A stretch of 64,000 bases of DNA from Cliona cf. orientalis (lineage: Eukaryota; Porifera; Demospongiae; Clionaida; Clionaidae): positions 1,550,001 to 1,614,000 of the forward strand of contig OZ005693.1 of NCBI GenBank assembly GCA_963930775.1, given 5' to 3'. The position numbers and the translations under genes were made by a program. Of this stretch, positions 5,913 through 64,000 are shown piece after piece. Position 1 is the stretch's first letter. The number at the start of each line of letters is the position of its first letter. Below the pieces are notes generated by a model. The model saw nothing but the letters and a program-made list of their open reading frames with translations. It was not told where the DNA came from and did not search any database.

Positions 5913-7342
5913 ATGACCGGTTGCTCTTACAAGTGTTTTACGGATTTTCTTAAATGTCATGCAGTGGCATTATTTTACGTTGCCATCGCAGTAGTTTCCA
6001 TCTTACTGCTCATCGTTTTTGCACTCGTCGTAACCATCTGCTGCATATGCCGCAGGTCAGTAATCGATTGCGCAGTATCATACCATCCTCCAGTGCTGTA
6101 TAGCTGCACATATTAAAACCTTAGTAGCTATTTTAATTCACGCTCTAACTTTTTGTGTGTGTCTGCACTGATCACTTTAATAGGTTGAAAAGAAGATCAT
6201 ATAATGTTGGATCCAAAGAGGATAAGGAAGATATCAACTTAGGTAACTGATATATAGCTAAACCATTAATAAGTCATTGAATAATACATGAAGCTAATAT
6301 TATGTTTGCAGAGACGAAAGGAGATGGATTCAAGATGACAGAAGTTGGAGGAGAAATATCTGCTGATGGAGAGAAAGATAAGAGCAAAACTAAGGCTAAT
6401 GACCGGGCTGAAGATGCAAAGCTGGAAAACTTTTCTGAAGGTAAAAACTACTATGATCGATGCACTTTGCTAGCTAAAATAATGAATCTATATGATCACC
6501 ACAAGCAAATACACAATGCCATCGGATCATCTTTGGTCAATCACCCCAAGCAAAACATACATTAGCTAAGCACACACAATAACCCCCATTTCACAATCAT
6601 GGTATCTGTATCTGCAGCAATGTATGACACAGTGGAGTGCACTACGGATCAACCATCAACCATCCATCAAACAAAACAAACAATAAATACCGACCCCCAT
6701 ACGATGGATGGAGATAATTATGACATCATCACCCACGTGGAACAGGACGACTCTACTAATGTGGGAAACAAGAACAGCAGTGACACCAAATCCGCCAAAA
6801 AGAGCAAAGAAAAGAAAGCTGAAAAAGAAATTGTAGAGGTGGAGTATTCTGTACCCGACAAATCGTACAAGAAAAAGAAGCAGAATGCTGGGAAAGCAGC
6901 AGGCACAACCTTAGAACAGGGCGCATCATCATCAAAGTCAGGAGGACAATCATCAAGCTTGGAATATAACACTCTACTACATGTGACATCCAGTAACACT
7001 AGCACACAGCGATTGTCGATGCCACCGCCAACTTCATCAGAGTACTCGATTATCACCCAGCAAGACACGGGTAAAAGCAAAAGAAATGGATCAACTGAAA
7101 ATGGACGACGTAGAGGAAGAACAAGTAGCCCACCAGAAGAACCCCCTCCTCCTCTTCCCCCGGCCTTCGTTGACGAGGAGAGCCCTGCAATTACAGGGGG
7201 AATTCAGTCCAGTGCTCAGAGCACAGCAGTAGGTCTTGGAATCAACCCAACAGGGGAGGGATTGCCACTCTATGATGACCCTGACAGCCTTGTAACCTCT
7301 GAACCTCAACAGGAGATGTACATGAATGTTAGCAAGAGATGA
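5913..7342 (+). CDS. B1: LAT-like transmembrane adaptor with tyrosine and SH3 motifs
   Basis: Four exons, 5913-6055, 6184-6242, 6312-6440 and 6618-7342 (phases 2, 1, 1), giving 351 residues. There is no cleavable signal peptide: about 20 N-terminal residues are followed by one TM helix (residues ~20-45) and a juxtamembrane CCIC-RR suited to palmitoylation. The tail carries MYDTVE, NYDIITHVE, VEYSVPD, LEYNTLLHV, EYSIITQ, a PPPPLPPAF proline motif (SH3 ligand), LYDDPDS and a terminal MYMNV (YxN, Grb2-type SH2 ligand). This layout matches LAT/PAG/NTAL-type adaptors in vertebrate lymphocytes, but I see no sequence homology to them, so the likeness is architectural. It likely acts at the plasma membrane as a scaffold phosphorylated by Src-type kinases (inference). 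First of four tandem paralogues. Confidence 0.85.
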
Positions 7343-7792
7343 ATTTTCCGCAATCACTGTTAATTTTTGCTACTGCTGTAATAATAATATTATTGTGTGC
7401 ATTACTGTAGTATAGTGCAGTGTAATGAGTTATTGTTTCCATATAAATTTAGTGTACAATCATGAATACCAAAATTTCACAGTTGGTTATAATAAAATCA
7501 CGATTAGCTAATAGTACTATTATTAGTGAAAGTGAATGTACAATATTAATTTTTGCATTCTTTGGTTACAGCTTCTCTTGCCAGGAGTCCTGGATAAGAT
7601 CCGATCCGTGACTCTTGGCAAGAGGGGTGGCCAAACCAAGCAAGAGTCTTGCTTGGTTTGGCCACCCCTCGTGGTTAATTAGCCACGCCCACTTTAATAA
7701 CGTATCCACGCGTACGCGGATGTGATCGGGATAAAAGTGTGCAGGATTTATAAAAGCTCGTTCTCCAAGCTAGCTCGCCTATCAGTCAGAAG
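7343..7792 (+). promoter_or_regulatory. B1 3' flank and B2 promoter with a 49-bp palindrome
   Basis: After the B1 stop an AT-rich 3' region contains AATAAAA near 7485. The B2 promoter repeats the block of the B1 promoter at 7651-7705 and a TATA-like TTTATAAAAG near 7750. The TTTGGCCACCCCTC element is present twice head to head, forming an inverted repeat at 7622-7670 with 20-bp perfect arms. Confidence 0.6.
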
Positions 7793-9792
7793 ATGGTACC
7801 GAATTGCACTGCACCACTCAATTGTTTTGATGTCTTTCTTTACTGTTATAGAAAGCAAATATTTTACGTTGCCATCGTAGTAGTTTCCATCTTACTGCTC
7901 ATCGTTTTTGCACTCGTCGTAATCATCTGCTGCATATGCCGCAGGTCAGTAATCGATCGCGCAGTATCATACCATCCTCCAGTGCTATATAGCTGCACAT
8001 ATTAAAATCTTAGCATTTTAATTCATGCTCTAACTTTTTCTGTGTGTGTGCACCGATCACCTTAATAGGTTGAAAAGAAGATCATATAATGTCGGATCCA
8101 AAGAGGATAAGGAAGATATCAACTTAGGTAACTGGTATAATAATATAGCTAAACCATTAATAAGTTCTTGAATAATATATGCTTATTGCCATAGTAGAAC
8201 GACGATACCGGGAAATATCACGAGTTCATTGCCGCGTATTGTTACGAGTGCGAAGCACGAGTAACAATGCAAAAGGCAATGAACGAGTGGTATTTCCGAG
8301 GTATCGTCGTTCTACTATGGTGATAAGGTATTTATCGTATATTTAAGAAGCCTATTCTGTACTGGAGCTTTAGTAGTTCGAGCGGTAAAGCTAAGAAGGG
8401 ACTCGGCGGCTTCGTTTAAGTTTTGCCAAGGCGATGACCGCCGTCATTTCAGGCACCGAAGACTAAGGAGTATAGCTAAGTAAGGTAAGGGCAGCGGCAC
8501 CATGGCTCATTTATCTAACTAGGGCAACAAAAATGACTGATAGCAGCAACTCACTTTCTTCTCTGGCGCTCAACGTTCTCTTGAACCATTGTTCAACGTT
8601 TCAACACTGTCAATATGGCGATCATGTGACGAACACGACTGATACGGATTTTGCACGTGACGAACACGACTGATATGGGAAATTATCATACGTGTTTCCA
8701 CCCACGCGTTTCCCATATGTTTGTATTACGGGTCAAAGTTCAATATACGATAATACATATTATATTTGCAGAGATGAAAGGAGATGGATTCAAGATGACA
8801 AAACCTGGAGGAGAAATATCTGCTGACAGAGAGAAAGATAAGAGCAAAACTAAGGCTAATGACTGGGCTGAAGATGCAAAGCTGGAAAACTATTCTGAAG
8901 GTAAACTCTATTATGCACTTTGCTAGCTATATGATCACCACAAGCAAATACATAATCATCTCTGATCAATCACCTCTGGCTTAAGCAAAACATCCATTAG
9001 CTAAGAACACACAATAAACCCCATTAAATTTTTATAGTTGTGGTATCTGTATCTGCAGCAATGTATGACACAGTGGAGTGCACTACGGATCAACCATCAA
9101 CCATCCATCAAACAAAACAAACAAAATTTAATACTGACCCCCATGCAGTGGATGGAGATAATTATGACATCATCACCCACGTGGAACAGGACGACTGTAC
9201 TAATGCAGGAAACAAGAACAGCAGTGACACCAAATCCGCCAACTTGAAGAAGAGCAAAGAAAAGAAAGCAGAAAAAGAAATCGTAGAGGTAGAGTATTCC
9301 GTACCTGACAAATCGTACAAGAAAAAGAAGCAGAACGCTGGAAAAGCAGCAGGCACAACCTTAGAACAGGGCGCATCATCATCAAAGTCAGGAGGGCAGT
9401 CATCAAGCTTGGAATACAACACTCTACTACATGTGACATCCAGTAACACTAGCACACAGCGATTGTCGATGCCACCGCCAACTTCATCAGAGTACTCGAA
9501 TATCACCCAGCAAGACACGGGTAAAAGCAAAAGAAACGGATCAACTGAAAATGGACGACGTAGAGGAAGAACAAGTAGCTCACCAGAAGAACCCCCTCCT
9601 CCTCTTCCCCCGGCCTTCGTTGACGAGGAGAACCCTGCAATTAAAGGGGGAATTCAGTCCAGTGCTCAGAGCACAGCAGTAGGTCTTGGAATCAACCCAA
9701 CAGGGGGAGGATTGCCACTCTATGATGATCCAGACAGCCTTGTAACCGCTGAACCTCAACAGGAGATGTACATGAACGTTGGCAAGAGATGA
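7793..9792 (+). CDS. B2: LAT-like transmembrane adaptor
   Basis: Exons 7793-7944, 8069-8127, 8772-8900 and 9059-9792 give 357 residues with matching phases. It is almost the same protein as B1: short N-terminus, TM helix, CCIC-RR, charged linker KDKSKTKAND, then MYDTVE, NYDIITHVE, EYSVPDK, LEYNTLLHV, EYSNITQ, PPPPLPP, LYDDPDS and MYMNVGKR at the end. EYSII of B1 is EYSNI here, creating a YxN site. Intron 2 is swollen from about 70 to 644 bp by inserted inverted-repeat DNA (8189-8753); the splice sites remain intact. Same expected role as B1. Confidence 0.85.
8189..8320. mobile_element. Foldback (hairpin) element in B2 intron 2
   Basis: Imperfect inverted repeat; the outer 21 bases CCATAGTAGAACGACGATACC at 8189 return as the reverse complement at 8300-8320. 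The centre has GTTACGAGTGCGAAGCACGAG-type symmetry. It is absent from intron 2 of B1 and B4, so it is an insertion. No coding capacity. Confidence 0.75.
8332..8753. mobile_element. Non-autonomous DNA element with TTATCGTATATT termini
   Basis: Begins with TTATCGTATATT at 8332-8343 and ends with its reverse complement at 8742-8753, next to the foldback element. The same intron in B4 goes straight from GAATAATA to TACATATT, marking the insertion. No ORF seen inside. Confidence 0.6.
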
Positions 9793-10760: not shown

Positions 10761-10920
10761 ACCCCTCGTGATTAATTAGCCACGCCCACTTTAATAACGT
10801 AGCAGCGGATACGTGATCGGGATAGTAGTCTCGCGAGCCACCAAAACAGAAGGGGCTGGCCGGCTCGCGAGACTAGGATAAAAGCGAGTTTTCCAAGCTA
10901 GCTCGCCTATCACTCAAAAT
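10751..10920 (+). promoter_or_regulatory. B3 promoter with a 50-bp palindromic insert
   Basis: Carries the same block as the B1 and B2 promoters (TTTGGCCACCCCTCGTG, GCCACGCCCAC, AATAACGTA, GATAAAAGCGAG). A small inverted-repeat insert at about 10826-10875 (TAGTCTCGCGAGCC and its reverse complement, the same terminus type as the 10412 element) lies just upstream of the TATA-like GATAAAAG. Confidence 0.55.
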
Positions 10921-12270
10921 ATGGCTCGTGAAAATATCACATGTTTTGATGACTTTCTTCAATGTTATAGAGAGCAAATATTTTACGTTGATATCGTAAA
11001 AGTTTCCATCCTACTGCTCATCGTTATTGCACATGTCGTGGCCATTTGCTGCATATGCCGAAGGTTAGTAATCGACCGCGTAGCTACCGACCATCCTTCA
11101 ATGTTGTACGTATAGCACAGAAATCCTAATATTTAATTATTAAATTTTAGGCTCTTATTTTGTGTGTGTGCACTGATCACTTAGGAAAAGAAGATCCTAT
11201 AATGTTGAATCCAAAAAGGATAGAGAATATATCACCTTAGGTAACTAGCTTAACCTTTAGTACATCACTGATTTAGCTACATGGAGCTAATTTAATTTTT
11301 GCAGAGAAAGAAGGAGATGGATTCAGGATGGAAGAAGTTGATCATGAAGGAGAAATAACTACTGAGGGAGAGAAACTGAACAAGAGCAAAACTAAGGCTA
11401 ATGACTGGGCTGAAGATGCAAAGCTGGAAAACATTTCTGAAGGTAAACTCTATTATGCATTTTTTAAGCTATATGATCATCACAAGCAAATACATAGCTA
11501 ATCATCTCTGATCAATCACCTCTGGCTTAAGCAAAACATCCATAATTTAGCTAAGAACACACAATAAACCCCATTAAATTTTTATAGTTGTGGTATCTGT
11601 ATCTGCAGCAATGTATGACACAGTGGAGTGCACTACGGATCAACCATCAACCATCCATCAAACAAAATTTAATACTGACCCCCATGCAGTGGATGGAGAT
11701 AATTATTATGACATCATCACTCATGTGGAACAGGATGACTGTACTCGTGCGGGAATTAAGAATAGCAGCGACAGTGCAGGTGCTGAGATTGCCAAGGAGA
11801 ACAAAGAAAAGAAAGTAGAAAAAGAAATCGTAGAGGTGGAGTATTCCGTACCTGACAAATCATACAAGAAAAAGAAGCAGAATTCCGGGAAAGCAGCAGG
11901 CACAACCTTAGAACAGGGCGCATCATCATCAAAGTCAGGCACTAGTATGCAGCAATTGTCAATGCCACCGCCAATTTCATCAGAGTACTCAATTATCACC
12001 CAGCAAGACATGGATAAAAGCGAAAGAAACGGGTCAACTGAAAATGGACAACGTAGAGGAAGAACAAGTAGCCCACCAGAAGAACCCCCTCCTCCTCTTC
12101 CCCCGGCCTTCGTTGACGAGGAGAACCCTGCAATTAAAGAGGGAATTCAGTCCAGTGCTCAGAGCACAGCGCTAGCAGTAGGTCTTGGAATCAACCCAAT
12201 AGGGGGAGGATTGCCACTCTATGATGACCCTGACAGCCTTGTAGCCTCTGAACCTCAACAGGAGATGTAA
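10921..12270 (+). CDS. B3: LAT-like adaptor lacking the C-terminal YMNV
   Basis: Exons 10921-11063, 11185-11240, 11305-11442 and 11609-12270 give 332 residues with matching phases. It differs from B1 and B2 in three ways. The TM region reads FYVDIVKVSILLL, with an Asp and a Lys at its outer end, plus a His near the middle. The LEYNTLLHV segment is deleted. One base is missing near the end (GAGATG-TAA-TG instead of GAGATG-TAC-ATG), so translation stops just before the MYMNV motif. It keeps MYDTVE, YYDIITHVE, EYSVPDK, EYSIITQ, PPPPLPP and LYDDPDS. The promoter is intact, so it may be expressed as an adaptor without the Grb2-type site. Confidence 0.8.
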
Positions 12271-13359: not shown

Positions 13360-15056
13360 ATGACTGACAGCACCGAAATGACGGACTTTTTTGACGCCTA
13401 CCACTATTATTATACTATGGCCACTCCAAATGAGAACATAGTTTCCCGTCCACCGCCCGCCTCTTTCTGATGCTACCGCTTCGTTTGACCATTATATCCA
13501 TTATTTATGGTTGTAGCTAGCTAGGAGCAATACTGCTTCATGAATTTTGAAGCTAGCAACCAACGGTGATGTGTGTACTTACGTTGCTTTCATGATAATA
13601 ATGCTCCTTCTTGTCAAGGTGCTGCTATCAGCGCACACTAGCTAGCGGTAGCACTGGCTAGCTGTCCATGCTCTCCTTGTATGCACGTGCACAATTGTGG
13701 GATAAAGAATTTTAATTATATTCATTGTGCTCATAATGATATTCATAATAATGGTTAATGGTAATGGGCGCCCGCCCGCATGTAAAATGCAGGAAGCCAG
13801 GACGGGAAACTATATTCTCATTTGGAGTGGCCTAACCATCTGCTGCATATGCCGCAGGTTAGTAATCAATCGCGCAGTATCATACCATCCTCCAGTGCTA
13901 TATAGCTGCACATATTAAAACCTTAGCATTTTAATTCATGCTCTAACTTTTTCTGTGTGTGTGCACCGATCACCTTAATAGGTTGAAAAGAAGATCATAT
14001 AATGTCGGATCCAAAGAGGATAAGGAAGATATCAACTTAGGTAACTGGTATATAGCTAAACCATTAATAAGTCATTGAATAATACATATTATATTTGCAG
14101 AGATGAAAGGAGATGGATTCAAGACAAAAGCTGGAGGAGAAATATCTGCTGACAGAGAGAAAGATAAGAGCAAAACTAAGGCTAATGACTGGGCTGAAGA
14201 TGCAAAGCTGGAAAACTATTCTGAAGGTAAACTCTATATTATGCACTTTGCTAGCTATAATTATGATCATTGCAAGCAAATACACAATCATCTCTGATCA
14301 ATCACCTCTGGCTCAAGCAAAACATCCATTAGCTAAGAACACACAATAGCTAAACCCCATTAAATTTTTATAGTTGTGGTATCTGTATCTGCAGCAATGT
14401 ATGACACAGTGGCCACTACGGATCAACCATCAACCATCCATCAAACAAAACAAACAAAATTTAATACTGACCCCAGTACAATGGATGGAGATAATTATGA
14501 CATCATCACTCATGTGGAACAGGATGACTGTACTTGTACGGGAAACAAGAATAGCAGCGATAGTGCAGGTGTTAAGATTGCCAAGGAGAACAAAGCAGAG
14601 AAGGAAATCGTAGAGGTGGAGTATTCCGTACCTGACAAATCATACAAGAAAAAGAAGCAGAATTCCGGGAAAGCAGCAGGCACAACCTTAGAACAGGGCG
14701 CATCATCAGGCACTAGTACGCAGCGATTGTCGATGCCACCTCCAACTTCATCAGAGTACTTGAATATCACCCAGCAAGATACGGGTAAAAGCAAAAGAAA
14801 CGGGTCAACTGAAAATGGACAACGTAGAGGAAGAACAAGTAGCCCACCAGAAGAACCCCCTCCTCCTCTTCCCCCAGCCTTCGTCGACGAGGAGAACCCT
14901 GCAATTAAAGGGGGAATTCAGTCCAGTGCTCAGAGCACAGCAGCAGGTCTTGGAATCAATCCAACAGGGGGAGGGCTGGCACTCTATGATGACCCTGATA
15001 GCCTTGTAACCTCTGAACCTCAACAGGAGATGTACATGAATGTTGGCAAGAGATGA
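13360..15056 (+). pseudogene. B4: chimeric LAT-like adaptor without a TM segment
   Basis: The first exon starts like gene C (ATG 13360; TEMTDFFDAY) and is cut by a transposon at 13419. After the transposon only the last 25 bp of a B-type exon 1 remain (13833-13857, coding ICCICRR). The TM-coding part is gone. Exons 2-4 (13982-14040, 14101-14226, 14395-15056) are intact B-type with MYDTV, NYDIITHVE, EYSVPDK, EYLNITQ, PPPPLPP, LYDDPDS and MYMNVGKR. A different upstream ATG (13727) opens a frame through the transposon into CCICRR, so a soluble or weakly hydrophobic product cannot be excluded, but a normal membrane adaptor is not encoded. Confidence 0.7.
13419..13832. mobile_element. Harbinger-type MITE at the B4 chimera junction
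   Basis: Inverted termini of about 33 bp, GGCCACTCCAAATGAGAAC... and the reverse complement ending ...TTTGGAGTGGCC. The right flank is TAA, as in intact B-type exon 1 (GTCG-TAACCATC); the left flank is C-type sequence ending TAT, so the two sides do not form a simple target duplication. GC-rich GCCCGCCCGCAT inside resembles the 12538 element. Confidence 0.7.
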
Positions 15057-15543
15057 ATTCTCCAAAATCCAGCAATTATTGCTATTAATTCAGTTTGCTA
15101 TTATTGCGTGCATTACTGTAGTGCAGTGTAATGAGATATTGCTTCCATACAAATTTAGTGTAATAATACTGAAATAAATTTGTACAGTTGTTTATAATAA
15201 AATCAAAATTATTACTATTAAGTGAAAGTGAATGACATTGTGCAATCATAATACTTTTGCATTCTTTGGTTACGACCTCGGTTACGACCTCTCCTGCCAG
15301 GAGTTCTGAACAGTGCAAAGGAACTTCAGCCTCCGATGAGCTACACGCATTAATATTATTATAAGATCTACTACTTTCTGGTCAGGCTGTCACGTCAGGA
15401 CTCACTATCTTGAATAGATCCTTTTATGGATACGGCGTGGTTTTGCGCATGTCGCTTCGCGCGTGCGCAGTTCAAGATGCGTATTATTCACCACGCCTAC
15501 AATTATAGCAGGAACATTGTTGCGAACTAAAGAATAAAGAAAG
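15057..15543 (+). promoter_or_regulatory. B4 3' flank and gene C promoter
   Basis: The first 250 bp match the B-type 3' flanks (GAAATAAATTTG, TTATAATAAAATC). From about 15350 the C promoter begins, with CTTCGCGCGTGCGCAG at about 15455 and no clear TATA box. No gene seen in the interval. Confidence 0.5.
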
Positions 15544-18030
15544 ATGGGATCTGCCACCGACGCCGAATTGGGCTTTTTTGACGCCTTAAACAGCGATGAA
15601 TATTTATACTTGGGTGCAACTTTCTACACTGCCGTAGGAGTTGTGGCCACGCTCGTCATCATTATCATCATCATGGCAATTGGTTACTGCTGCTTTGCAA
15701 GATACCTTGTGAAACGAAACAGGCTAATGAATAGGTATACTATCACCATATTATACTATAGCTCTATCGATGATAATATCCTACCTTCTTCCGCCTTTAA
15801 ATTTGTTTACCGAATGTACAGGAAAGTAAAACTGTTGACATCTCCACAGGAGAATAATGATGATATTATTGAACTTAAAGTGAACAATACTACTCTGAAA
15901 CCAGGTGAGGTAGCTATACTCAGTTTTGAGAGCTGGTCATTTTCAGAATCTTATAATATTATATACCAGTGCAAATAGTCACGGCAGTATCACTGTGTTC
16001 CCAGTTTGATGCACTGGCTATAGTAAATTTGGTGTAGATTAAAGTTACTGTAGCTATCTAGCATTGGAACATGTACCCTCTACAGTTGGTCAATGTGGTA
16101 CGTTAGTTAGCTAACTGGTATATATTAGGTCATGTTTGTTTTTGAGATGAGTATGTGCATACAAGATGTGTACCTGAACTATAGAGCTAGTGTAACGTAT
16201 CAGCGTCCATATCATGTTGCTGACATGCAGGCAGCGTAGAGGAAGACAATGTCAATGAACAACAAACTAAACGACAGCTGCAGCTGTCACAAGAGAATGT
16301 AGCTACTGAGATGAGTAGCCAGGACAACTTGAGGGACACGATTCCACTCATCCAAGAAAAAGTCGACGAAATACCCAATGAGAACAAGACTATAGACCCT
16401 AAGCAAGTGAAAAACATCCCAGAAGGTATATATTATGGGATCCGGAATTGGGCTAAGCTATACTTTACAATGCTACAATCACACATTTATACTAATATGA
16501 AATAGTATGGAACATGTACGTGGCTGTTATGCTGTAATCATATATAGGGCTTTTTGCAACTATAATATACAGGGCCTCCTTGTTTGATAAGAGTAGTCAT
16601 GTGTAGTATGCTCAGTGCATGGCTAATAAATTAAACACCCATGTGTACTTTTAGTGAACGAAAACCAATAATATACACTTGCGTGGTGTACAGAATAAAC
16701 AGATACTTACAATAATGTTTAGTTAGAAGCCTTATACAGGATGACCTACAAGTTGAAACTTTACATCTACATGTCTTGAGCAATTCTGCATTGTATAGTG
16801 AAATATATAGCACTAACATTATCGTGCGGCTCATGCATAATAATATTATCTGATTGCACCAAGTGTGCTACTGCAGGGCAGCTATTGATGATAGATCATC
16901 ACTAATTTGAAGATTTCACACAAGAATACTAATTAAACGTGTATTATGTGATTATAAGAGAGATCCCATTAAATTTGGCCCATTTGTCACACATAAAATT
17001 TTAGCTTATTGCTACACTTGTTGCCAGCTATATAATATAGCTCTCTGAGTTACAATTTTCAACAAGTCCAACATGTTATTGTTGTATAGTGTATAGTAGA
17101 AGTACATACCGTTACACTATAATCTTGTATCTGCTATTGACAGGAATGTATGCCACCGTAAACAACGATGATAAAACAGAGAATGGAGTTGCTCACAATA
17201 TGACTGTCACAGCAGATGTGATGCCACCAATGGTTCATGGTTTTACGGTAAATGACGGAGACTATGCTGAAGTGAAGTGTGACCTTAGTACGTCGTATCC
17301 GTATCCACCTGGTGATAGTGCAAAGGACCGTTCGCGTACTTTACCTAGTACCGCTATGGTTGATATTGACATGGAAAATGAAGATTACAGTCGACTTGTC
17401 CATGACACACAAAAGAACCCACGTCATTCAATGCCACTTTTGTCGGACTATTCCCGAATAGGCGTCGGTGGAGCAAAGTGGCGCAGCTTGGAAACGGAAT
17501 TGGACCAGAATCAGAATCAGAATCAGAATGAGGATCTGTACGCCACACCAAATCCCAAAACCAGGTCGAATCATGATATCATGAACAGTGCTGCATACTG
17601 TGATACTCCCTCCCCACTTCCCACACCAGTAATAGACGATCCTGATAAAATATTGGGAACTCCAGGCAGCCAGGAATCGAGACCATCAAGTCAAAAACAA
17701 GGAAAGGAAAGTGACAAAGAGATGACATTGGACACATCGGCACCGCCAAAGGGAGAGTCACCCCCTCCCCTTCCTCCGCCCTACCTAGACGGGGACCTTG
17801 AGGAAGCCAGCGAGGCTTTGTACGATGAGGCAATTATTGTGAATCACTATCAGAATGTAAGCAGCCGTATTGAGTCGGGAGATGGAAATGTTGATCGCGA
17901 TGGGAAAGGAGGGTTCAGTGGTTATTCAAAACTTGTGGACATTAATGTGGCTAAGGAGAATGCAGGCCTAATGAACACAGGGGATCTCCAGGAGGGCATA
18001 TACGATAGCATTGATCAAGAAGGAGATTAG
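15544..18030 (+). CDS. C: transmembrane adaptor with many tyrosine motifs
   Basis: Exons 15544-15734, 15822-15904, 16231-16425 and 17144-18030; phases match, 451 residues. The roughly 30-residue N-terminus has no clear signal peptide. The TM helix (about residues 28-52) ends in YCCF, then KRNR. The tail contains MYATVNN, DYAEVK, EDYSRLVHD, SDYSRIGV, a QN repeat, LYATPNP, AAYCDTP, PSPLPTP, PPPLPPPYL, LYDEAIIVNHYQNV, GYSKLVDI and IYDSIDQ. These are candidate SH2 and SH3 ligands; YSRL and YSKL are half-ITAM-like, and YQNV is a YxN site. The exon plan is the same as in B1-B3 but the sequence is only distantly similar. Intron 3 is about 720 bp with no other gene visible. Confidence 0.8.
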
Positions 18031-32089: not shown

Positions 32090-32094
32090 GCAAC

Positions 32095-46366: not shown

Positions 46367-46394
46367 ATAGAATTCTTCCAATAATAATATTATA

Positions 46395-50802: not shown

Positions 50803-52539
50803 ATGGGTATGTATTGTTTGCCATGTATAATCTTAGTGAGTGTATTGAGTAGCGTTGTACTCAGTGAAGAAGAAAAGTCAATGGTTCAATCAGTTAATAG
50901 ACGACTGAGTGGTGATATCTATAATGTATTCAACTCGACTGTTCACTTTGCTTGTTCCGATGGTGGTAATCTGACCTTCCTGGTCAGTGAGAAAAGGTGT
51001 GTCAATAATGAAGAATTATTTAATGGTGAGTAGATAAGACATTTCAAAGGTTAATAATAATATGCTTATGGTTGTAATTTTTCTATCGCGGCAAGTTCAG
51101 ATTGCAACTTAATCATCTCTGCAATCAAAGAACCTTCTACTCCCAAATTAGCCCTGATTATTGATTACCAGAATGATACTGAGATAGTGGTAGCTACCCC
51201 CTTTAACTCTGATACAGATGCGGTTGTTTACGATAGACATACAGGTCAACCAGTGAACAGTGCTTTCTGTCACATTACTAGTCTTGAGGTATATCGAGGA
51301 AGGAACAAGGCAACTAAAATTAGTCATGGTGGATTCCATTTGAATCAAAGGGGGGCTATTGAGGTGAGGTAGCTAATGAACAACAAACTGGGATGCTTTC
51401 TCGTAATCATTCATTTCAGATAAATCCTCCTCTGGGTTACAGCATTGATGAATACACAGGCGAACTCTATCACATGAACCTATCCTGTAGCAGTTCTGGT
51501 GGAGGACTACCAGAGAGTGGATGCCTGTTCTTTAAAGTGATTGGAATGACTAACACACTGCATGGTCGGGAATGAATAACTATAATTAATGCTTGTCATT
51601 ATAAGTATTGGTTTTGTTTCAACTGCAGCTAAGTTCAATGATATTATACCTGGAACTCTAAGGACCAGATCTAACAACATGCCCCCAGCAACTACATCCA
51701 CACCACAAACCACTGATTCAACACCCTTTGAGGGTGATTTAACGATGCAAACACCCTCAAACTCAAGTACATCGCCACCAATCGATTTTGTTGATAGTAC
51801 ACGTACCAGTACTATTCTTGTGATCATTGTGCCACTTGTGGGAGGTGTGATCATTCTTATCAGTACCGTGATGGTTTGTATCGTGGTTTTATTAAGAAAG
51901 TTTAATGGTCGAAAGAATTCAATTTCAACCATGGTTGCTCGACCACAAAATCAAGGTATTATAATATATTTACTAATTTAGAATAATTGAATCATGCATG
52001 CTCAGATCCAGTCCAGCCTGCATTCATAAAAGTTTAGTATTTGTAAATTCCTAGGCGAGTATTCGAAGTTTCCAAGAGTGCATAGCTATAGAATGTGCTC
52101 TTGCTTCCCGATCACAACCTGGTATAGGCAATTTGCAACATAGTGCCCACTGATTCAATACAGTGTCATTAGCTATAGTTTTCTATCATCTATAGAATCT
52201 GACACCATGAAATCACAACCTAGTGATTGCCAAAGAAACCCAGCATACAGTCACTTTGGTCCTACTGACAGATCACTAGCAGCTTTGCTGTCTGATAATT
52301 ACAGCGAAAACCCAGCCTACAACATTGATGCACAGCCAAGTGCTCCCCAAGAACCAACTTATGAAGTTATTCTATCGGATACAGACAAGATCCCTCAAGG
52401 AGCACAGAATGTAAATTGTAGTCAAAATCCTGCGTACATTCCTCTGGTGGAGGAAAGCTTTCGAATAGCTGCAGATGCAACGTCTCCTGGTGACTACAGC
52501 CAAAATCCAGCTTACGGTATTCACTCAAATCCTAATTGA
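50803..52539 (+). CDS. D8: SLEVYRG receptor with four NPAY motifs
   Basis: Exons 50803-51025, 51101-51363, 51420-51564, 51629-51955, 52196-52539; 433 residues, phases 1, 0, 1, 1. Signal peptide, QSVNRRLSGDI, TFLVSEKRCV, C-N-L-I-I, C-H-I-T-S-L-E-V-Y-R-G-R, GELYHMNLSC, LPESGCLFFK, AKFNDIIPGT. The stalk ends in a TM helix (ILVIIVPLVGGVIILIS). The last exon carries QRNPAYSHFG, SENPAYNIDA, EPTYEVIL, SQNPAYIPLV and SQNPAYGIHS: four NPAY motifs, likely multivalent PTB docking or endocytic signals. The ectodomain is almost that of D9, which has another TM and tail. Confidence 0.87.
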
Positions 52540-52734
52540 GAATTACTTGAACCTTTAATTAAAATCTTGCACAATGTCATTATTACGTATACATAGCTAT
52601 ATTAGGTGTTTGAATACATATCCAGTCATTCTTCAAACTTATTACAACTTATTGCAATTGTAATCATAACAATTTGGTATAAACATACATAATTATTGGA
52701 ATTTATGTCCCATTGCTGCCCATTTTGCCAGTCT

Positions 52735-53246: not shown

Positions 53247-54994
53247 ATGAATATGGGTGTGTATTCTTTGCCATGTATAATCTTAGTGAGTGCATTGAGT
53301 AGTGTTACAGGTGAAGAAGAAAACTCAATGGTTCAATCAGTTAATAGACGACTGAGTGGTGATATCTATACTGTATCCAACTCGACTGTTAACTTTGCTT
53401 GTTCCGATGGTGGTAATTTGACCTTCCTGGTCAGTGAGAGAAGGTGTGTCAGTAATGAAGAATTTTTTGATGGTGAGCAGATAAGATATGCAGAAGGTTA
53501 ATATGCTTATTGTTGTAATTCTTCTATCACAGCAAGTTCAGATTGCAACTTAATCATCTCTGCAACCAAAGAACCTTCTACTCCCAGATTAGCCCTGATT
53601 ATCAAAAATGATACTGAGATGATAACAGCAGCTACCCCTTTTACTTCTGAAGCTTCTAATTTAACAGATGCAGTTGTTTATCATAGATCTACTGGTCAAC
53701 CAGTGAGGAGTGCTTTCTGTCACATTACTAGTCTTGAGGTGTATCGAGGAAGGGATGAAGCAACTAAAGTCAGTCACGGTGGATTCCATTTGAATCAAGG
53801 GGGGGCTATTGAGGTGAGGTAGCTAATGGATAACAAACTGGGATGCTTTCTCATAATCATTCGTTTCAGATAAATCCTCCTCTGGGTTACAGTATTGATG
53901 AATACACAGGCGAACTCTATCGCATGAACCTATCCTGTAGCAGTTCTGGTGGAGGACTACCAGAGAGTGGATGCCTGTTCTTTAAAGTGATTGGAATGAC
54001 TAAAACACTGCATGGTCGGGAATGAATAATTATAATTAATGCTTGTCATTAAGTAATGCTATCCAATTGCAGCTAAGTTCAATGATATTGTACCTGGAAC
54101 TCTAGGGACCAAATCTAACAATAATATGCCCCCAACAACTACATCCACACCACCAACCACTAATTCAACACCCTTTGAGGGTGATTTAATGATGCAGCTT
54201 ACTACAACCATCTCAACTATTGGCAGTGACAATATCTTTAAAGTGGGAAGTCCTTTGTTCTACATAGTGATTGGAGCAGGGAGTAGCATACTAATTCTGT
54301 TACTGATTATCCTGACAATGCTTACTGTCATGTGCCTCCTGGTAATCACTAGGGGAAAGTCCTATACTCTTGCTCTAGATGACCAAAGTGGTGACAGCTC
54401 AAGAGAAAGCTCAAACTCAAAAGGTCAAGGTACAGTATTGTGTATGATCTGATCATCTACCCCATATTAATTTTCAGGCACAAGAGTGGCACTGGTGGAG
54501 TCAGTACCTCGGCCAGACCCAGTACATTCCACTGTAGTACCTGGGCAGGATTCTGTTGCAGAAATCGGTAAATTAAAATATATTGAGGCAAGTAGATACT
54601 GATGATTATATCAATGATGTATCTTTCAGTTTCAGAGAATTTGTATGCTGAGATCAGAGAACGCAATGCTTCCTCCCCTTCTCCTCCTCCCCTCCCTCCA
54701 CCACTAATGGCAGATGACCTGATAGATGAAGAAGGAGCTACGATAGAGAGCAACTATCAGGCTAACGTTAGCGTCCCTTCTCATCTAAAATGGGCTTCAA
54801 AGAGAATCAGTAGAGCTGCTGATCACGATCTAGCCTACCTGTATGAGGGACACAATACCGAATTTGAGCTACCGTTTTACCCCAAGCAAGCCGGCGGTGT
54901 CACAGATGTAGCTGGCTCTCTTTACGATGATCCTACAAGCCTCTCACTAACACCAGCACCAGTGAGGGTGCAAGATGGTCGTCAAAGACTATAG
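53247..54994 (+). CDS. D9: SLEVYRG receptor with SH3-ligand and YDDP tail
   Basis: Exons 53247-53472, 53542-53813, 53870-54014, 54073-54429, 54478-54567, 54630-54994; 484 residues, phases fit. A second ATG at 53253 aligns with the D8 start. Ectodomain as D8 with few changes (QSVNRRLSGDI, TFLVSERRCV, SLEVYRGR, GELYRMNLSC). From codon FEGDLMMQ onward exon 4 departs from D8: TM helix PLFYIVIGAGSSILILLLII, RGKSYTLALDD. Tail: NLYAEIRE, SPSPPPLPPPL (SH3 ligand), NYQANVSVPSHLKW, AYLYEGH, LYDDPTSLS. YAEI and YDDP are candidate SH2 ligands. The TM region resembles adaptor F. Confidence 0.88.
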
Positions 54995-55802: not shown

Positions 55803-58574
55803 TTAGTCCTTACGCTGGTAAGTGGCACCAACAGGAGGATACTGTCCACCAATTGTGTTGCATCTGCCAGTATTTGCATCACCTGAGTCAGTGAATAGTG
55901 AAAGGGATGGACAGGACGTGGTGGATATCTTATGTGAGGCTGGTGCCATTGCTGCTTCGAATTCACCATTACTTGGCTTCGTAGTCTCTTTTTTCCTTGA
56001 ATTCTTTCTTTCCTTGTCCTTTCTTGTCACTCCACGAGTATCTCTGATATGCACAGGGGGATATTCCATCGGTCGTGCTCCAAAATAGGAAGGTAGTGAC
56101 TGCTTCTTACTAGATGGTTGATGAGAATGTTGCTTACGCTCGGCATCATTTGCTCTGGCTTTCGGAGAGATTGTATTATAAATCTGAACCAACTCGAAAT
56201 TTTCATCTCTTGATTTAGACCTTGAATGCTTTCGTATTCGTTGAGACTCCTGACTCCTGAGTGAGTTAGACATCCAAGAGTTATTAGACTGCCCCTCGTC
56301 GTCAAGGATACGACAAATCGGTTCAGTCTGTTCATGTGTGCTGTGAGTGTCTTGCTCTAATATTGCATATGTATGTTCTGTATCAATATTTCCAGTATTA
56401 TCTTTATTTGGTGAATATCCTCCTTCCTGACTTTGTTCTAATATTGAATATGTATGATCTCTGTCGACCTCTCTAGTACTGTCTTCATTTAGTGGCAATC
56501 CTTCCTCCTGACCTTGTTCTAATATGGCATACATATGCATATGATCACTTTCAGTATTCATTGTTTGCACACAAGCAGCAGTTGACTGTTGCTGTTGACT
56601 TTGCTCTAGAATAGCGACACGTGTATGATCAGACTCTGCATGTATGGTTTTCGCTGTTTGTTTGTGTGTTGACTGTTGCAAGCGGTCCTGCTCTAGTATG
56701 GCATACATGTGCTCAAGATCCACATCCCTCGATTCCAAGCTGGAAAGGGGTAGGGGTGGGCAAGAACAAGAAGAGAGCTTTTGTGAGGATGGCACCATCG
56801 TTGCATGTTCAATGTCACTTTTCTTTCCTTTCTTCTTCACAATTGGGGCGTCGTAAACGGGCATCGACTCATCTAAAGATATTGCATGTGAGGAACCTTT
56901 CCATGTGCTCAATTGCAAAGCCGAATATTCTGGTGCACCACCGCAGCCAAGATAAGCTGGTAGGGACTGTTTCCCATGAAGGCTGGAGTGAGTGAGTTGA
57001 CTATACACCATTCCTCCTGCTTCTCCTTCTTCGGGCGGCTTTGGATTAACAACATCGTAAACCTGCGATAGCTCTAGATCCTCTTTAGAATCAGTTGGTA
57101 AGTGTTGAATATTAGATTCTGGAGGACTCTGGATTGGTGCACTATTGTTATTCCCCTCAGATAATGTTGATCCAATTTGCTCCACTTCAGTTGGGAAGAT
57201 ATGCACTTGATATCGATCTTGTCCTATTCTATAATCACTACCGGCAGTAGTTGTATTCCTTGTAGGATGACACTGGTGTCCATTGTTTGACATCAAAGTG
57301 AGCTCATCCATTATTCCAGCTGTATTTGGCCGTGGACTTTCATAAGGACAAGGCTCAGAATCTATGCCTAATATGAATAGTATTGACGTGAACTATTATG
57401 TAGCAATTGACTTATTATCCTACCTTGCATTATACCATTGTTTGGGGGTAGTGTGGCAGCTACTGTGAATGTGTGTGACTTTCTCTTCCTTTGAATTGAA
57501 AAGCCAATGAGTACACATATTATTATGAAACTGAAAATCAGAACAATAACCCCTCCACCGACACCAATCAGTATGTAGAAGAGGGTATTTCCAATTACTA
57601 AAATGGAGACTGTTGTAGTCGACTCCGCAATATCAGCCATAGTGGCTGATACAGAATCAACTCTTACAGTAGTTATGTTTTCCCCTGTAGACTGTTGTGT
57701 GCCATCATTGGACTGAAATATTCCTGGAACAGTGCCATTAAATTTATCTGAAAAAAATTAATGACAAATCAACTTAAAGAGCCAGTAGATGCATGTACTA
57801 ACATGGCTTCTTACCTATTACTGTACTAGTGTCTCCTTCAACTTTAAAAAACAGGCATCCACTCTCTGGTAGTCCTCCACCAGAACAGGATATATTCATA
57901 CGATAGAGCTCTCCCATATAATCTTCAGTCTCATAGGCTAGCTGATGACCATGGATCTGAACATTATTTGAATCAATCAGCATCATTAAACGTAACTATT
58001 ATCATCTAACCTCAATGGTACCATTGTCACTGAGAGATAATCCCTGATGGCCTATCTCAATGGCTTGCTCCCTTCCTCGATATACCTCCAGGCTGGAGAT
58101 TTGACAAAAGCTGCTGTTTACACTTCGATTGGTTCCATTGAAGCCAAGTATTAGTACATGCTTCTTGAAAATAATATCATCTATAGTGGTAATTGCTGAA
58201 TGTTGACTGTCAATAGCAGCAGCAGTAGGTATGAGGGATGCAAAGTTTATAGGAACAACAGCAACCCTGCATCCTATAATATATTTGATACAATGATTGT
58301 ATACATCAGATATCATTGGATTACCAGAAAAGATCTCTTCATCTGATGCACACTGCTTCTCATTCACTAGATAGTTAGGTTTATCACCACACTGTATGCT
58401 TACTGTGTCAGTAGTATTTGAATTTAGACTATACAAGTCAGTAGAGCTCCGTCTAATAACCCATACGGTAAAATTGGCTTCTGCTTGTACTGAAGCGCAC
58501 AAACTCAGCAAAGCCACAAATGCTAAACTGAGCTTCCTACTAGCTACAACTGAATCAGCAATAGCCTTTGCCAT
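55803..58574 (-). CDS. D10: SLEVYRG receptor with YAILEQ repeat tail
   Basis: Minus-strand exons 58574-58325, 58273-58011, 57956-57815, 57747-57424, 57367-55803; 847 residues, all phases fit. Signal peptide, WVIRRSSTDLY, NYLVNEKQCA, G-C-R-V-A, C-Q-I-S-S-L-E-V-Y-R-G-R, GELYRMNISC, LPESGCLFFK, DKFNGTVPGI. TM helix TLFYILIGVGGGVIVLIFSF. The tail of over 500 residues has QVYDVVNPKP, MVYSQLTH, EYSALQL and PVYDAPIVKKKGKK. Then six spaced units carry (H)MYAILEQ, RVAILEQ, MYAILEQ, TYSILEQ and TYAILEQ, separated by 20-40 acidic, Gln-rich residues. QIYNTISPK and further motifs follow. YAIL and YSIL fit YxxL/I ITAM/ITIM-like sites. The VYDVV...YSQLT segment matches the F and D7 tail module. Confidence 0.88.
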
Positions 58575-59397: not shown

Positions 59398-61602
59398 TCA
59401 AAATGGGACAGACATATACAACTGTTCTGAACTGCCTTGGACAGATACAGCATTGTCCCGATCATAATGAGTAGGCACAGGTTTCAAGGTGGGTGATGGA
59501 CTCCGTCTGGTGAGGCAAGGCCCGTACTCTCCATCTAATTTTACTTCTTTGAACTCAGTAACCATCTCTTCCGACGGTGTGGCTTCTTGAGTTGGTGATT
59601 CCAGTGATGGTCCCTGTTTTGATGATTTAGATGTCATATCTGACAGTGTGAGTTGCTTTGTTATGACATTGTGCTTCACTCTCCTGACTAATAAGCCAGC
59701 AACTACACCTAATACTACCGTCACAATAAGAAATAACAACACCCCACCTACTGCTATGTAAACAATATCGGGTGATAAAGTTACTGTAGTTGTAGTAAAA
59801 GTTTTCATGATTTTAGTGGTTGATACAGAATCAACTACTGTTATGTATATTCCCCTGTAGGATCAGTAGACTGTTGTGCAGTGTCACTATCAGGTTGAAT
59901 TGTTCCAGGCACTATGCCATCAAATTTGTCTAAAAATGACAAATTTGATTCATCTTAAAGAGCTCAAGCCAGCAGATGCATGTCCAGTAACATGGCTTCT
60001 TACCTTCTACAGTACTGGTGCTTCCTGCTACTTTAAAGAACAGGCATCCACTCTCTGGTAGTCCTCCACCAGAACAGGATAGGTTCATACGATAGAGCTC
60101 TCCCGTATAATCTTCAGTCTCGTAGGCTAGCTGAAGATCATGGATCTGAACAGTCACTAATTTTCAATCAATCAGCATCATTAATTTAACTATTATCATC
60201 TTACCTCAATGCTACCATTGTCACCAAGAAAGAATCCCCGATGGCTTATCTCAATGGCTTGCTCCCTTCCTCGATACACCTCCAGACTGGAGATATTACA
60301 AAAGCTGTTGTTCACACTTTGATTGGTTCCATTGAAGCCAAGTATTAATATAGAGTAGGGTTGGCATATTTCGGACAGCTAAGAAAAGACAGCGTTATAT
60401 CACAGACAAACGAGCAGCACTAGATCGCGACTATGCAACCACAGATAGGCCCAAACACCACCTACTAAACGAGCCCTTAACCATGGCCCCACCTACTTTC
60501 GTTCGTGCAGGGCGTGTGCACAAAGTACCGCTGGTTCTGGAGGTAGAGAGCGGACAGTGTCGACCATTACCGGACAAAGGTGAAAGAAAATACATAAAAA
60601 ATCGCGGCTGCGGTCATCAATATATGACACATAAATGGCATCAAATGCATCACGAACAACATCCTTCTTACATCCTGCCTTTAGATTTGAAGATTCATCC
60701 AAAAATTGTGAAATAATTCATGAATACATAAAGTAATGCAATATATGCATTGTCCAGAAACTACCTCTGAAAGTTCTTTACAAAAATAATCTGGTTTATG
60801 CTTACAATAAGGTCAAAAAATTCCGGAAAAAATTCTAAAAATTCTCCATACATTCTAGTATGCACATACCAAATGAAAAAATAATTCATCAAAAATTGAT
60901 GCCACTGTACCATAGTAATAATATTCATAAATCTTAGCTACCATGAAAAACCAGCTTCTTGAAGAAAATACGAAAAAGTTGCAACTGTTTAGAGCAGCAT
61001 TGTGCAGCTTCTGTGTGAATGCACACCACAAGAAATGAAATATAGGTAGTACTTACATGGCCCCTACCTCATGGCAAATGGTGAAAGATTACGTAATACC
61101 GTTGGCCGCATAAACGCAATTATGTGCGAGGCGTCCAGTAACTGCCTCCGTCCGATAATACCCTACCCTACTCTACGCTTCTTAAAACTATCATCTATGG
61201 TGATAATTGCTGAATATTGACTGTCAATAACAGCAATAGGTATGAGGGATGTAGAGTTTATAGGAATAACAATAACACCGCATCCTATAATATTATTACA
61301 TAATACATCGAACAATAATATCATAATATCATTGGATTCATATACATACCAGAAATGAGCTCTTCATCAGATGCACACTGCTTCTCATTTACTAGATAGT
61401 TAGGTTTAGTACCACAATTGTCTAGTGTGACAGTATTATTTGAATTCAGACTGTACAAATCAGTAGTTCTCCGTCTACTAACTGATACAGTAAAATTGGC
61501 CTCTGCTTGTACTGAAGTGCACAAACTCAGTAATGCCACTAACACTACGCTAAGCTTCCTCTTACTAGTAGCTCCAACCAAATCAGATGTGGCCTTCGCC
61601 AT
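59398..61602 (-). pseudogene. D11: SLEVYRG receptor with transposon in exon 2 and a frameshift
   Basis: Minus-strand parts: exon 1 61602-61350, exon 2 split by a transposon (61284-61172 and 60378-60205), exon 3 60145-60004, exon 4 and tail 59929-59398. Ectodomain is close to D10 (VSRRRTTDLY, NYLVNEKQCA, SLEVYRGR, GELYRMNLSC). The transposon could be spliced out in frame (see findings). In exon 4, before the TM segment, the sequence GGGGAATATACATAA shifts the frame to a stop relative to D10; the TM (IVYIAVGGVLLFLIVTVVLG) and tail (VKLDGEYGP, EQLYMSVPF) then lie in another frame. If the shift is real the gene encodes at most a soluble ectodomain. Confidence 0.65.
60353..61173. mobile_element. 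TA-flanked DNA element inside D11 exon 2
   Basis: Ends GAGTAGGGTTGGCATATTTC and the reverse complement of GAGTAGGGTAGGGTATTATC are imperfect inverted repeats of about 25 bp. TA is duplicated at 60351-60352 and 61174-61175, as for Tc1/mariner-like insertions; removing the element and one TA rejoins an open frame matching D10. Internal ORFs are short and show no transposase motif. Confidence 0.75.
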
Positions 61603-62346: not shown

Positions 62347-62560
62347 ATGCATGGATCAGCTAAAGATCAAAGAAAGTGTTGGCTTATGCTCTTGCTAATT
62401 GTTTGCAAAGTGTGTTTGCCCATCTCAGTTCAAGTAGTTGCCTTGAGTGGTAATGAGTCTAGAATAGTAGAGAGGGTTAGTAGAAAATTGAACAAGGATA
62501 ATATTATATATTTCTTCAGTAACGGTTCAAACATTAACTGTGGGGATAAAAACACATACA
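62347..62560 (+). pseudogene. Exon-1 fragment of a SLEVYRG receptor
   Basis: ATG at 62347, hydrophobic segment (WLMLLLIVCKVCLPISVQVV), VERVSRKLNKDN, then C-G-D-K-N-T-Y where siblings continue L-V-x-E-x-x-C-V; here it departs after TYT. No exon 2 or 3 follows on the plus strand. A truncated gene start. Confidence 0.6.
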
Positions 62561-62760: not shown

Positions 62761-62936
62761 TGCCACGGTGCATAAATTCCAATATAATTATGTGCGTGTA
62801 AACTACAAATACCAGGTATTACAATTGTTACATTGTGCAATGAGTTTGAAGGATGACTGGATACATATTCAAACACCTAATATATTATAATAATGACATT
62901 GCGCAAAGTTTTTACACTGAGGTTCAAGTAGCTAAT

Positions 62937-64000
62937 TCTCAATTAGGATTTGAGTGAATACCATAAGCTGGGTTTTGGCTGTAGTCACCGGGTGATGTTG
63001 CATCTGCAGCTGCTTGAAAGCTTTCCTCCACATGTACACCCAGATGAATGTATGCAGGATTTTGACTACAAGTTACATTCTGAGGGATCCTGTCTATTTC
63101 TGATGGAATAACTTCATAAGTTGCAGGGGCGTACCTTAGTTGTTTCCTCGTTGCCCGGAAACCCCCCTTGGCAGTCAGATCAGCATTATCTTAGTATGAC
63201 TTAGCTGCTATAGGAAACCCCCTTGGTTTCCAGATTTCATCTGCAGGCACTAAAATCTCTTAAAACTTAGTTTAGAACTCTCCTCTGGTGTTTTTCCTTG
63301 TGTTTCTTTGCTAAAATCTTCGAGAATCTGGCAAACTGTTACTAAAACATGCTAAACGGCGATCATTAATTAGAGTGCGTGGCCCAAAAAGTGGGCGTGG
63401 TCGCTAAATTTTTCGCGCGCGCTTCGCGCGCAACTATTAAGAAACCCCCTGTATCAAATCCTGGGTACGCCCCTGAGTTGGTTCTTGGGGAGCACTTGGT
63501 TGTGCATCAATGTTGTAGGCTGGATTTTCGCTGCAACTACCAGACAGCAAAGCTGCTGGTGAACTGTCAGTAGGACCAAAGCGACCATATGCTGGGTTTC
63601 TTTGGTAATCATGGGATGTCATTTCCGACAGTTGTTTTGTTACGACATTGTGCTTCACTCTCCTGACTAATAAGCCAGCAACTACACCTAATACTATCAT
63701 CACAATAAGAAAGAACAACACTCCACCCACTGCTGTGTAAACAATATCGGGTGATGGCATTGCAGCATGCGTAGTAACTGTTGTAGAAAAGGTCGTCATG
63801 ATTTTTGTTGATGTTATCATAGAATCTGAAAATGTGTTGGTATTTGTTATAGCATTATCACTCTGAGCAGACACTGTTAGTGTTCCTAGCACAGTGTTGT
63901 TGAATTTATCTAAATTTATGAGGATGATCAAATTGGCATCAATTATTGTGGCATTAATTGAATACCTATTATTGTGCTGGTATATCCTCCCACTTTAAAG
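62937..64000 (-). CDS. D13: SLEVYRG receptor, 3' part; tail split by a transposon; runs off right edge
   Basis: Exon 3 end at 64000-63966 (FKVGGYTSTII), exon 4 from 63909: DKFNNTVLGT, stalk, TM helix IVYTAVGGVLFFLIVMIVLG, RRVKHNVV. In the same exon follow YQRNPAYGRFG and SENPAYNIDA. A 352-bp element then interrupts the exon after QEPT, adding a stop 13 residues on. The rest of the tail (SQNPAYIHLG, SQNPAYGIHS, ending 62937) is intact beyond it. The TM part is like D11 and the tail like D8, a mosaic. Ectodomain exons 1-2 lie outside the window. Confidence 0.7.
63124..63475. mobile_element. hAT-like MITE inside the D13 tail exon
   Basis: Inverted ends CAGGGGCGTACC and GGTACGCCCCTG; AGTTG duplicated at 63119-63123 and 63476-63480, the same 5-bp size as at the 31523 element. 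Contains CGCGCGCTTCGCGCGC. No transposase; non-autonomous. Confidence 0.8.

Follow-up and report, generated by a model that had tools for sequence, protein, structure and literature searches.

A tandem array of sponge receptor genes joins one unclassified ectodomain to different tyrosine-motif tails

Paired receptors are usually a vertebrate story of Ig and lectin domains. Their genes (KIR, LILR, Siglec, CEACAM) are clustered and carry near-identical ectodomains on different tails, one side having an immunoreceptor tyrosine-based inhibitory motif (ITIM) and the other a charged transmembrane (TM) segment with an adaptor that bears an immunoreceptor tyrosine-based activation motif (ITAM). Docking proteins of the LAT/p130Cas type have a minimal ectodomain, many YxN (Grb2-type) and YxxP (Crk-type) sites, and proline runs; CED-1/Draper/MEGF10 carry NPxY and YxxL in one tail, with PTB readers. 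Here we analyse a stretch of 64,000 nucleotides (the window; C5:1550001-1614000, on chromosome 5) of the demosponge Cliona cf. orientalis, with whole-genome searches over the 216.8 Mb genome (149 contigs). It lies in a tandem array whose genes, in the reading that we consider probable, encode kinase-less single-pass receptors with one unclassified ectodomain and interchangeable phosphotyrosine-docking tails, a paired-receptor-like organisation that evolved independently.

Ectodomain loci were located by profile searches for exons 1, 2 and 3 separately. These exons are found in fixed order at 30 loci of chromosome 5, in C5:1,542,245-1,655,161 (113 kb), and the receptor array reaches about 7.8 kb to the left and 41 kb to the right of the window. 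Two further loci are found on C7:7.066-7.075 Mb, and there are fragments as well. A genome-wide query with the second exon of the 43 kb gene (genes are named by their position in kb, in the window or on C5) gave at least 31 matches, all of them in the chromosome 5 array or at the chromosome 7 place. Within the window, 11 loci have exons 1, 2 and 3. Two more, both on the minus strand, are cut by the window ends, one at each end, and there are two fragments, at 46380-47126 (without exon 1) and 62386-62559 (exon 1 only). An earlier reading of the window, made from the sequence alone, had reported at least nine receptor genes sharing a three-exon ectodomain. These 11 loci and their constant splice phases confirm this observation, and the array is larger than reported.

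The ectodomain has around 190 residues and six conserved cysteines. Exon 1 encodes a signal peptide (recognised by eye) and about 50 residues, exon 2 about 90, and exon 3 about 45-50. The junctions have constant phases: 1 between exons 1 and 2, 0 between exons 2 and 3, and 1 between exons 3 and 4. In the alignment of 21 members (first-row numbering) the invariant columns include C30, C45, C110 and C164, with C55 and C176 nearly invariant. The conserved part is the second half of exon 2 together with exon 3 (SSLEVYRGR, GELYRMNLSC, ESGCLFFKV); the variable part is the first half of exon 2. An automated reading of exons 1-3 was stop-free at 25 of 31 loci (30 on chromosome 5, one on chromosome 7), those at 1636381 and 1638970 having doubtful exon-2 acceptors; the six failures may in part reflect misreading and not gene damage.

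The 50.8 and 53.3 kb genes share 86% of their ectodomain residues. When the two are compared in 100-base bins, DNA identity is 0.86-0.99 in nine of the first ten bins (0.65 in the other), introns included, and drops to 0.33-0.43 from about 51.75 kb, within exon 4 and just before the TM segment; the BLAST match ends at 51749 and 54196. In the 1633/1550 kb pair the break falls within the threonine-rich stalk, and in the 48/45 kb pair near the border of exons 3 and 4. Identity thus ends sharply in each of the three pairs examined, always at or inside the stalk/TM exon, which upholds the earlier statement that different tails are attached to one and the same ectodomain, as do the close ectodomains with mixed tails described below. 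The tails of the five genes with four NPAY motifs (4xNPAY) are 80-86% identical in all 10 pairs, and nine of the 10 ectodomain pairs are 43-61% identical (the 1543 kb ectodomain being incomplete, and the six-NPAY tail at 1545 kb represented by its second unit). Just downstream of three NPAY exons, at 46.1-46.4, 52.7-52.9 and 62.6-62.9 kb (the last on the minus strand), there is a TM-like fragment (IDLVVY.AVGAAGRI) that resembles the TM segment in the 48 kb receptor (52712-52817 vs 49186-49292, 78%), as if tail block and flank had been copied together.

Tails are described here from open reading frames (ORFs) and not from finished gene models, because the automated gene finder over-extended and cut TM segments. 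The modules distinguished in the sequence-only reading are present: no clear motif (19 and 20 kb), one NPAY (22.6 and 41 kb), four NPAY (51 kb), PPPLPPP with YxxP (53 kb), a YDVP scaffold (48 kb) and YAILEQ repeats (58 kb, minus strand). The 29 chromosome 5 genes that were classed, by eye and after the loci had been inspected, fall into N (NPxY only, 12), S (YxxP/YxxL/proline scaffold, 9), M (both, 5) and O (no clear motif or unresolved, 3). In 15 tail ORFs there are eight NPxY (shuffle mean 0.6), 24 YxxP (11.5), 41 YxxL/I (15.2), 13 proline runs (1.5) and 14 ITIM-like [ILVS]xYxx[ILV] sites (6.2), none of which was reached in 500 shuffles, and 14 YxN (7.1), reached in four of 500; these counts are inflated because four adaptor tails, which hold six of the 14 ITIM-like sites, are near-copies and not independent. 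Immunoreceptor tyrosine-based switch motifs, PPxY, and class I/II SH3 patterns are at chance level in the same ORFs. A site of the form Y-S/A-x-P-D followed by a Lys/Arg run (YSVPDMKKK etc.) recurs on receptors and adaptors, in the tails at 9.3, 38.8-39.5 and 50.2 kb, at C5:1619 kb and at C16:2.468 Mb.

On a maximum-likelihood tree of the 29 ectodomains (11 of 26 forks open, nine long end branches, 10 starred branches), the N label requires 10 changes, as few as in 396 of 500 shuffles, and S requires seven (160 of 500), so that both are spread about as at random; M with three (17) and O with two (44) are clustered. All seven groups of close ectodomains, comprising 20 genes, mix N and non-N tails, a result equalled in 621 of 20,000 label shuffles; for one of the N genes (45 kb) no stalk/TM exon was found, though its NPAY end is present. 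N and S clearly alternate at C5:1615.8-1628.4 kb.

A genome-wide search with the 4xNPAY/TYEVI exon (52195-52558) gave 12 matches, nine of them on C5. The copies outside the array, at C7:3443148, C14:1873380 and C14:1898572 (76-79% protein identity), follow the TM exons of unrelated ectodomains, which have no Pfam match above the cut-off. A third copy of the chromosome 14 ectodomain, 88% identical, continues instead into juxtamembrane and tyrosine-kinase exons (PF07714, E 7.3e-17). Its DNA identity to copies 1 and 2 drops to 0.35-0.4 after about 1.4-1.5 kb, which in copy 1 is near the start of the cassette, and neither of these copies has a kinase or juxtamembrane match in the roughly 4 kb that follow the cassette. 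In the chromosome 7 gene (C7:3,441,000-3,447,000, minus strand) the cassette is flanked by the TM exon on one side and the kinase exons (PF07714) on the other. Because it ends in a stop codon, the NPAY exon could be an alternative last exon, making two forms of this gene possible. That the cassette is found beyond the array, and in the place of a kinase in another receptor family, is new here.

The chromosome 14 ectodomain belongs to a second family (FQVWRP...QPGDVLGFY) with 69 genome matches at E≤0.001, largely in tandem clusters on C7, C10, C14, C6, C16, C18 and others, and with no Pfam match above the cut-off. The few members that were read have NPAY cassettes, a kinase, or NxAY-type repeats at their ends. 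An 80-residue kinase N-lobe probe gave no match in the receptor array, nor in 20 kb around the chromosome 7 ectodomain copies. Within C5:1520001-1684000 its sole match (C5:1,681,792-1,681,998) is outside the array and belongs to a gene whose ectodomain is a different one. The receptor tyrosine kinase gene at C5:1,680,000-1,688,400 (minus strand), about 25 kb to the right of the array, has repeated PGDxLGL ectodomain units, and NPAYGGK and QNPVYGG segments after TM-like stretches.

The window also encodes stand-alone TM proteins that lack the ectodomain. The tail of adaptor 1 contains YDTV, YSVPDKSYKKKK, YNTL, PPPPLPP, YDDP and YMNV. Adaptors 1-4 are near-copies that match only one another in the genome, all within the window, and the tail of adaptor 5 (17 kb) matches only itself in the genome stretches compared. 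Further TM ORFs start at 24334, 27013, 28357, 30480, 32766, 34128, 35998 and 37525. The TM exon of the last (37540-37866) matches the receptor TM exons at 54.2 and 57.4 kb; genome-wide, receptor TM exons are matched at E 1.2e-7, 1.6e-7 and 2.8e-5, as is one C16 gene (E 3.4e-5) whose tail has YSMPDKSKKKDK and SPPPPMLPP. In the long tail at 38 kb, YSNV/YSNL/YSNM alternate with YSVPDM-KKK and YDVP. This tail has no Pfam match at E≤10, and in a 29-sequence database it matches the tails of the 48 kb receptor (30.6% over 170 residues, E 1e-8) and of the C5:1617 kb receptor (E 6e-5). The earlier description of ectodomain-less TM proteins with related tails therefore holds at 24-40 kb, where TM or tail sequence is shared; at 5.9-18 kb, since the tails match only each other or themselves, the relation is one of motifs.

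No Pfam family scored above the cut-off for the ectodomain (typed and aligned members), and the PDB gave no match by sequence or by profile. Across the 21 members, seven Pfam families occur at E≤1, each in one member (best E 0.021), and neither Ig nor C-type lectin is among them; the members scanned gave no EGF match. An SRCR match in one of the 21 (E 0.081) was taken as chance. The exon-2 alignment yielded no confirmed relative in GTDB genomes or IMG/VR. Among public proteins, a single full-length query found no homologue in 249 candidates, but alignment queries did find relatives. With the exon-2 alignment, 297 of 510 candidate proteins scored E≤10, and the 120 matches listed all have E≤1.3e-18, carry no Pfam domain, and come from the sources ena, jgi, ncbi and lgn, the last of which we take to be Logan. 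With the alignment of exons 1-3, 114 of 1000 candidates had E≤0.001. At least 220 distinct relatives occur in public contigs, unnamed or at most labelled 'hypothetical protein', and most of them probably come from sponge samples. The protein P0126 (303 residues, source lgn), which lacks the start of exon 1 and has IYDDLDF at its C-terminus, spans exons 1, 2 and 3, stalk, TM and tail across the inferred junctions LLD/ECEF, LVE/VDNDT and LTS/GKFDC. It provides independent support for the exon model, and is possibly a transcript. Among the titles and abstract openings listed from an open-licence library none describes the family, and absence there is weak evidence. With no Pfam or PDB match, and with 30 loci on chromosome 5 and two on chromosome 7, the ectodomain is neither a domain known from these databases nor single-copy, which supports the sequence-only reading.

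Like vertebrate paired receptors, the array consists of linked genes with closely related ectodomains on different tails, and sequence exchange between paired genes, as in SIGLEC11/16 (PMC5701461), is a further likeness. It differs in its ectodomain, which has no Ig or C-type-lectin match, and in its tails, which are NPxY arrays or YxxP/YxxL scaffolds and not ITIM set against charged TM and ITAM. We propose that it works like paired receptors; no homology to these or to any family tested was found. The sponge adaptors are of LAT type in having a short ectodomain, one TM segment (by hydrophobicity only) and several tyrosine motifs of SH2-binding type. The likeness is one of these features, and unlike LAT or Cas some of the adaptors have TM or tail sequence in common with receptors nearby. 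The array also resembles sponge receptor tyrosine kinases, which have NPxY near the TM (by eye), the cassette between TM and kinase exons on chromosome 7, and on chromosome 14 one ectodomain that comes with either kinase or cassette; these have other ectodomains, and the family of the window gave no kinase match. The combination of NPxY and YxxL in one tail, with PTB readers, recalls CED-1/Draper/MEGF10, whose ectodomain is unrelated.

PTB or endocytic adaptors recognise NPxY; among SH2 domains, those of Crk type bind YxxP and those of Grb2 type YxN, and PPPLPP is a site for SH3 or EVH1/WW-type domains. On this background, we suggest that the ectodomain binds ligands and that the exchangeable tails read the binding out. 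The same or similar ligands would be directed either to an NPxY route, through PTB-domain, endocytic or phagocytic adaptors, or to an SH2/SH3 scaffold route, through YxxP, YxN, YxxL and PPPLPP. The stand-alone adaptors would join via related TM segments and so enlarge the scaffold. Because no kinase was found in the array family, the phosphate would be supplied by sponge receptor or Src-type tyrosine kinases. Roles in immunity, symbiosis, feeding and allorecognition are all possible. The structure proposed in the sequence-only reading is right, its suggested immune or self/non-self function remains putative, and that interpretation is in part supported.

Because one tail is found on unrelated receptors in other parts of the genome as well, sponges may own a mix-and-match version of vertebrate-type paired receptors. 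A wider and more tentative idea, to which we give somewhat less than even weight, is a genome-wide combinatorial code. A few tail cassettes (4xNPAY/TYEVI; YSxPD-KKK/YxN; kinase) would be recombined among unrelated sponge-specific ectodomains, each ectodomain being kept both with an NPxY tail and with a scaffold or kinase one. If so, paired receptors would have been invented independently in an early animal lineage, and receptor kinases and docking-only receptors would be two halves of a pair. An array built on an unclassified ectodomain, with a cassette common to receptor-kinase genes, would show that this organisation arises repeatedly. The array would also be a sequence-defined candidate for how sponges discriminate microbes, symbionts or other sponges, and its defined genes and breakpoints would allow direct testing of tail exchange.

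Selection was assessed as dN/dS (the ratio of nonsynonymous to synonymous change), pooled over nine close ectodomain pairs that share members. The ratio is 0.50 for the signal peptide, 0.37 for exon 1, 0.64 for the variable part of exon 2 and 0.31 for the conserved part. Single pairs scatter, with the variable part at about 1.4 in two pairs and 1.2 in one, and exon 1 at 2.0 for the 50.8/53.3 kb pair (eight changes). The pooled ratio is 0.36 for eight NPAY tails and 0.29 for four adaptor tails. Tyrosine columns are invariant in five of six cases in the NPAY tails (other columns 51 of 104) and in eight of eight in the adaptor tails (others 185 of 227). On average, selection keeps both ectodomains and tails.

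Several observations weigh against paired receptors with exchangeable tails. All tail labels jointly require 12 changes on the tree (minimum 3, shuffled mean 14.5), a value as low being found in eight of 200 shuffles. The labels are somewhat clustered, mainly M and O, and for this reason exchange is not free for every tail type. The classes were set by eye, and the pairing statistic is modest (3%). No canonical ITAM (YxxL/I-x6-12-YxxL/I) occurs in the 15 tail ORFs, so that, within the earlier comparison with vertebrate pairs, a strict ITAM/ITIM likeness is not supported. NPxY and YxxP are short motifs whose binding partners are predicted. There is no clear positive selection, only two of nine pairs exceeding 1.3 in the variable part of exon 2. 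The automated reading failed at five of the 30 chromosome 5 loci and gene fragments are present, for which reasons part of the array may be decaying. The 5.9-18 kb adaptors have no sequence kinship to the receptors, and the paired-receptor reading does not account for the arrival of the cassette at three other loci.

It is possible, though on balance doubtful, that the proteins are endocytic or phagocytic receptors for particle capture, feeding or the acquisition of algal symbionts, and do not carry opposing signals. Clathrin/PTB adaptors (GULP/CED-6-like) are recruited by NPxY tails, no tail type is more frequent here than the NPxY array (class N, 12 of 29 genes), and the genome has PTB exons. 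A Cliona species has moreover been studied for Symbiodinium uptake (PMC4144087). The long YxxP/YxN/PPPLPP tails and the stand-alone adaptors, however, resemble signalling scaffolds and not signals for uptake. We think it unlikely that this is an allorecognition locus, in which haplotype-variable receptors set fusion or rejection of sponge tissue. The genes form one large cluster, their ectodomains have a variable and a conserved half, and the fragments suggest copy-number turnover, all of which would suit such a locus. So would the spread of public relatives, where among the 120 listed four are identical to the nearest gene here and the others range over 40-92%, with four at 86-92% and 101 at 40-80%; yet these may simply belong to other species, and the variable part of exon 2 has no excess of amino-acid change (pooled value 0.64).

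An ordinary lineage-specific tandem expansion, with tails differing by neutral shuffling and no paired logic, is improbable to a similar degree. It would account for the chance-like spread of the NPxY label over the ectodomain tree, for the fragments and failed readings, and for a mixed-group statistic of only 3%, but not for ratios below 1 on both ectodomains and tails, for nearly invariant tyrosine columns, or for an N/non-N contrast that recurs in seven of seven groups. Very improbable, finally, is an assembly artefact, in which the tail swaps are misjoins or collapsed haplotypes. The published assembly had 201 misjoins or missing joins corrected and a primary k-mer completeness of 60.5% (PMC12639293). 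Against an artefact, mixed tails recur in seven ectodomain groups, introns have diverged, splice sites are in phase, and proteins of a single public contig (665,185 bases) contain the exon 2 of four array genes unchanged, though that contig may derive from the same sequencing data.

Table 1. Coordinates of receptor genes, stand-alone adaptors and related features in the window (position 1 is the first base of the window; e1-e4, exons 1-4).
Feature	Position	Strand	Exon-1 match start	Basis
Receptor exon 1, remaining exons left of window (to C5:1548701), 4xNPAY tail	49..285	-		exon profiles
Adaptor 1 (TM ORF 5892-6113; tail 6566-7339)	5892..7339	+		ORFs
Adaptor 2 (TM 7754-8002; tail 9028-9789)	7754..9789	+		ORFs, genome search
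Adaptor 3 (TM 10882-11112; tail 11578-12267)	10882..12267	+		ORFs, genome search
Adaptor 4 (tail 14364-15053; TM ORF seemingly shortened)	13706..15053	+		ORFs, genome search
Adaptor 5 (TM 15538-15975; tail ~17101-18027, 16 Tyr, SPPPLPPP)	15538..18027	+		ORFs
Receptor, short tail without clear motif	19024..20134	+	19057	e2 19319-19597, e3 19668-19787, e4/TM ORF 19847-20134
Receptor, short tail without clear motif	20369..21605	+	20399	ORFs, exon profiles
Receptor, tail YAEV and one NPAY	22562..24117	+	22565	tail exon assigned by position
Tandem adaptor TM exons with small NPAY/NPVY tail exons	24334..37866	+		ORFs
616-residue scaffold tail exon of 37.5 kb adaptor	38021..39868	+		ORF
Receptor, tail PPPPDP and one NPAY	40966..42471	+	40993	ORFs, exon profiles
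Receptor, clear e1-e4; tail exon unassigned	42900..44036	+	42930	ORFs, exon profiles
Chimeric-looking receptor, 48 kb-like ectodomain, then two NPAY	45140..46084	+	45167	ORFs, exon profiles, BLAST
Headless copy of 43 kb receptor (part of e2, e3, e4)	46380..47126	+		ORFs, exon profiles
Receptor, YDTV/YDVP/YAIPDVKKK scaffold tail (ORF 49582-50391)	48202..50391	+	48226	ORFs, exon profiles
Receptor, 4xNPAY and TYEVI tail	50809..52536	+	50824	ORFs, exon profiles
4xNPAY tail cassette, recurs on chromosomes 5, 7 and 14	52195..52558	+		exon-length DNA matches, 78-83% identical
Receptor, PPPLPPP and YxxP tail; 86% ectodomain identity to 51 kb gene	53253..54991	+	53274	ORFs, tree, BLAST
Receptor, 529-residue tail ORF, four intact YAILEQ/YSILEQ repeats and YxxP	55806..58574	-	58526	ORFs, exon profiles
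Receptor, tail end LYMSV; exon 2 matched in second half only	59401..61602	-	61548	ORFs, exon profiles
Exon 1 fragment	62347..62559	+		exon profiles
Receptor 3' part (e1/e2 right of window); e4/TM and 2 NPAY 63440-63994, 2 NPAY 62942-63190	62942..64000	-		ORFs

No Rfam family and no tRNA was found within the window. Candidate readers of the tails are present in the genome, with 103 SH2 and six PTB exon matches. The SH2 exons occur in runs at C7:1.89-2.14 Mb, mostly in open frames of about 230-430 residues, and at C19:5.40-5.52 Mb, which suggests a tandem expansion of SH2 genes.

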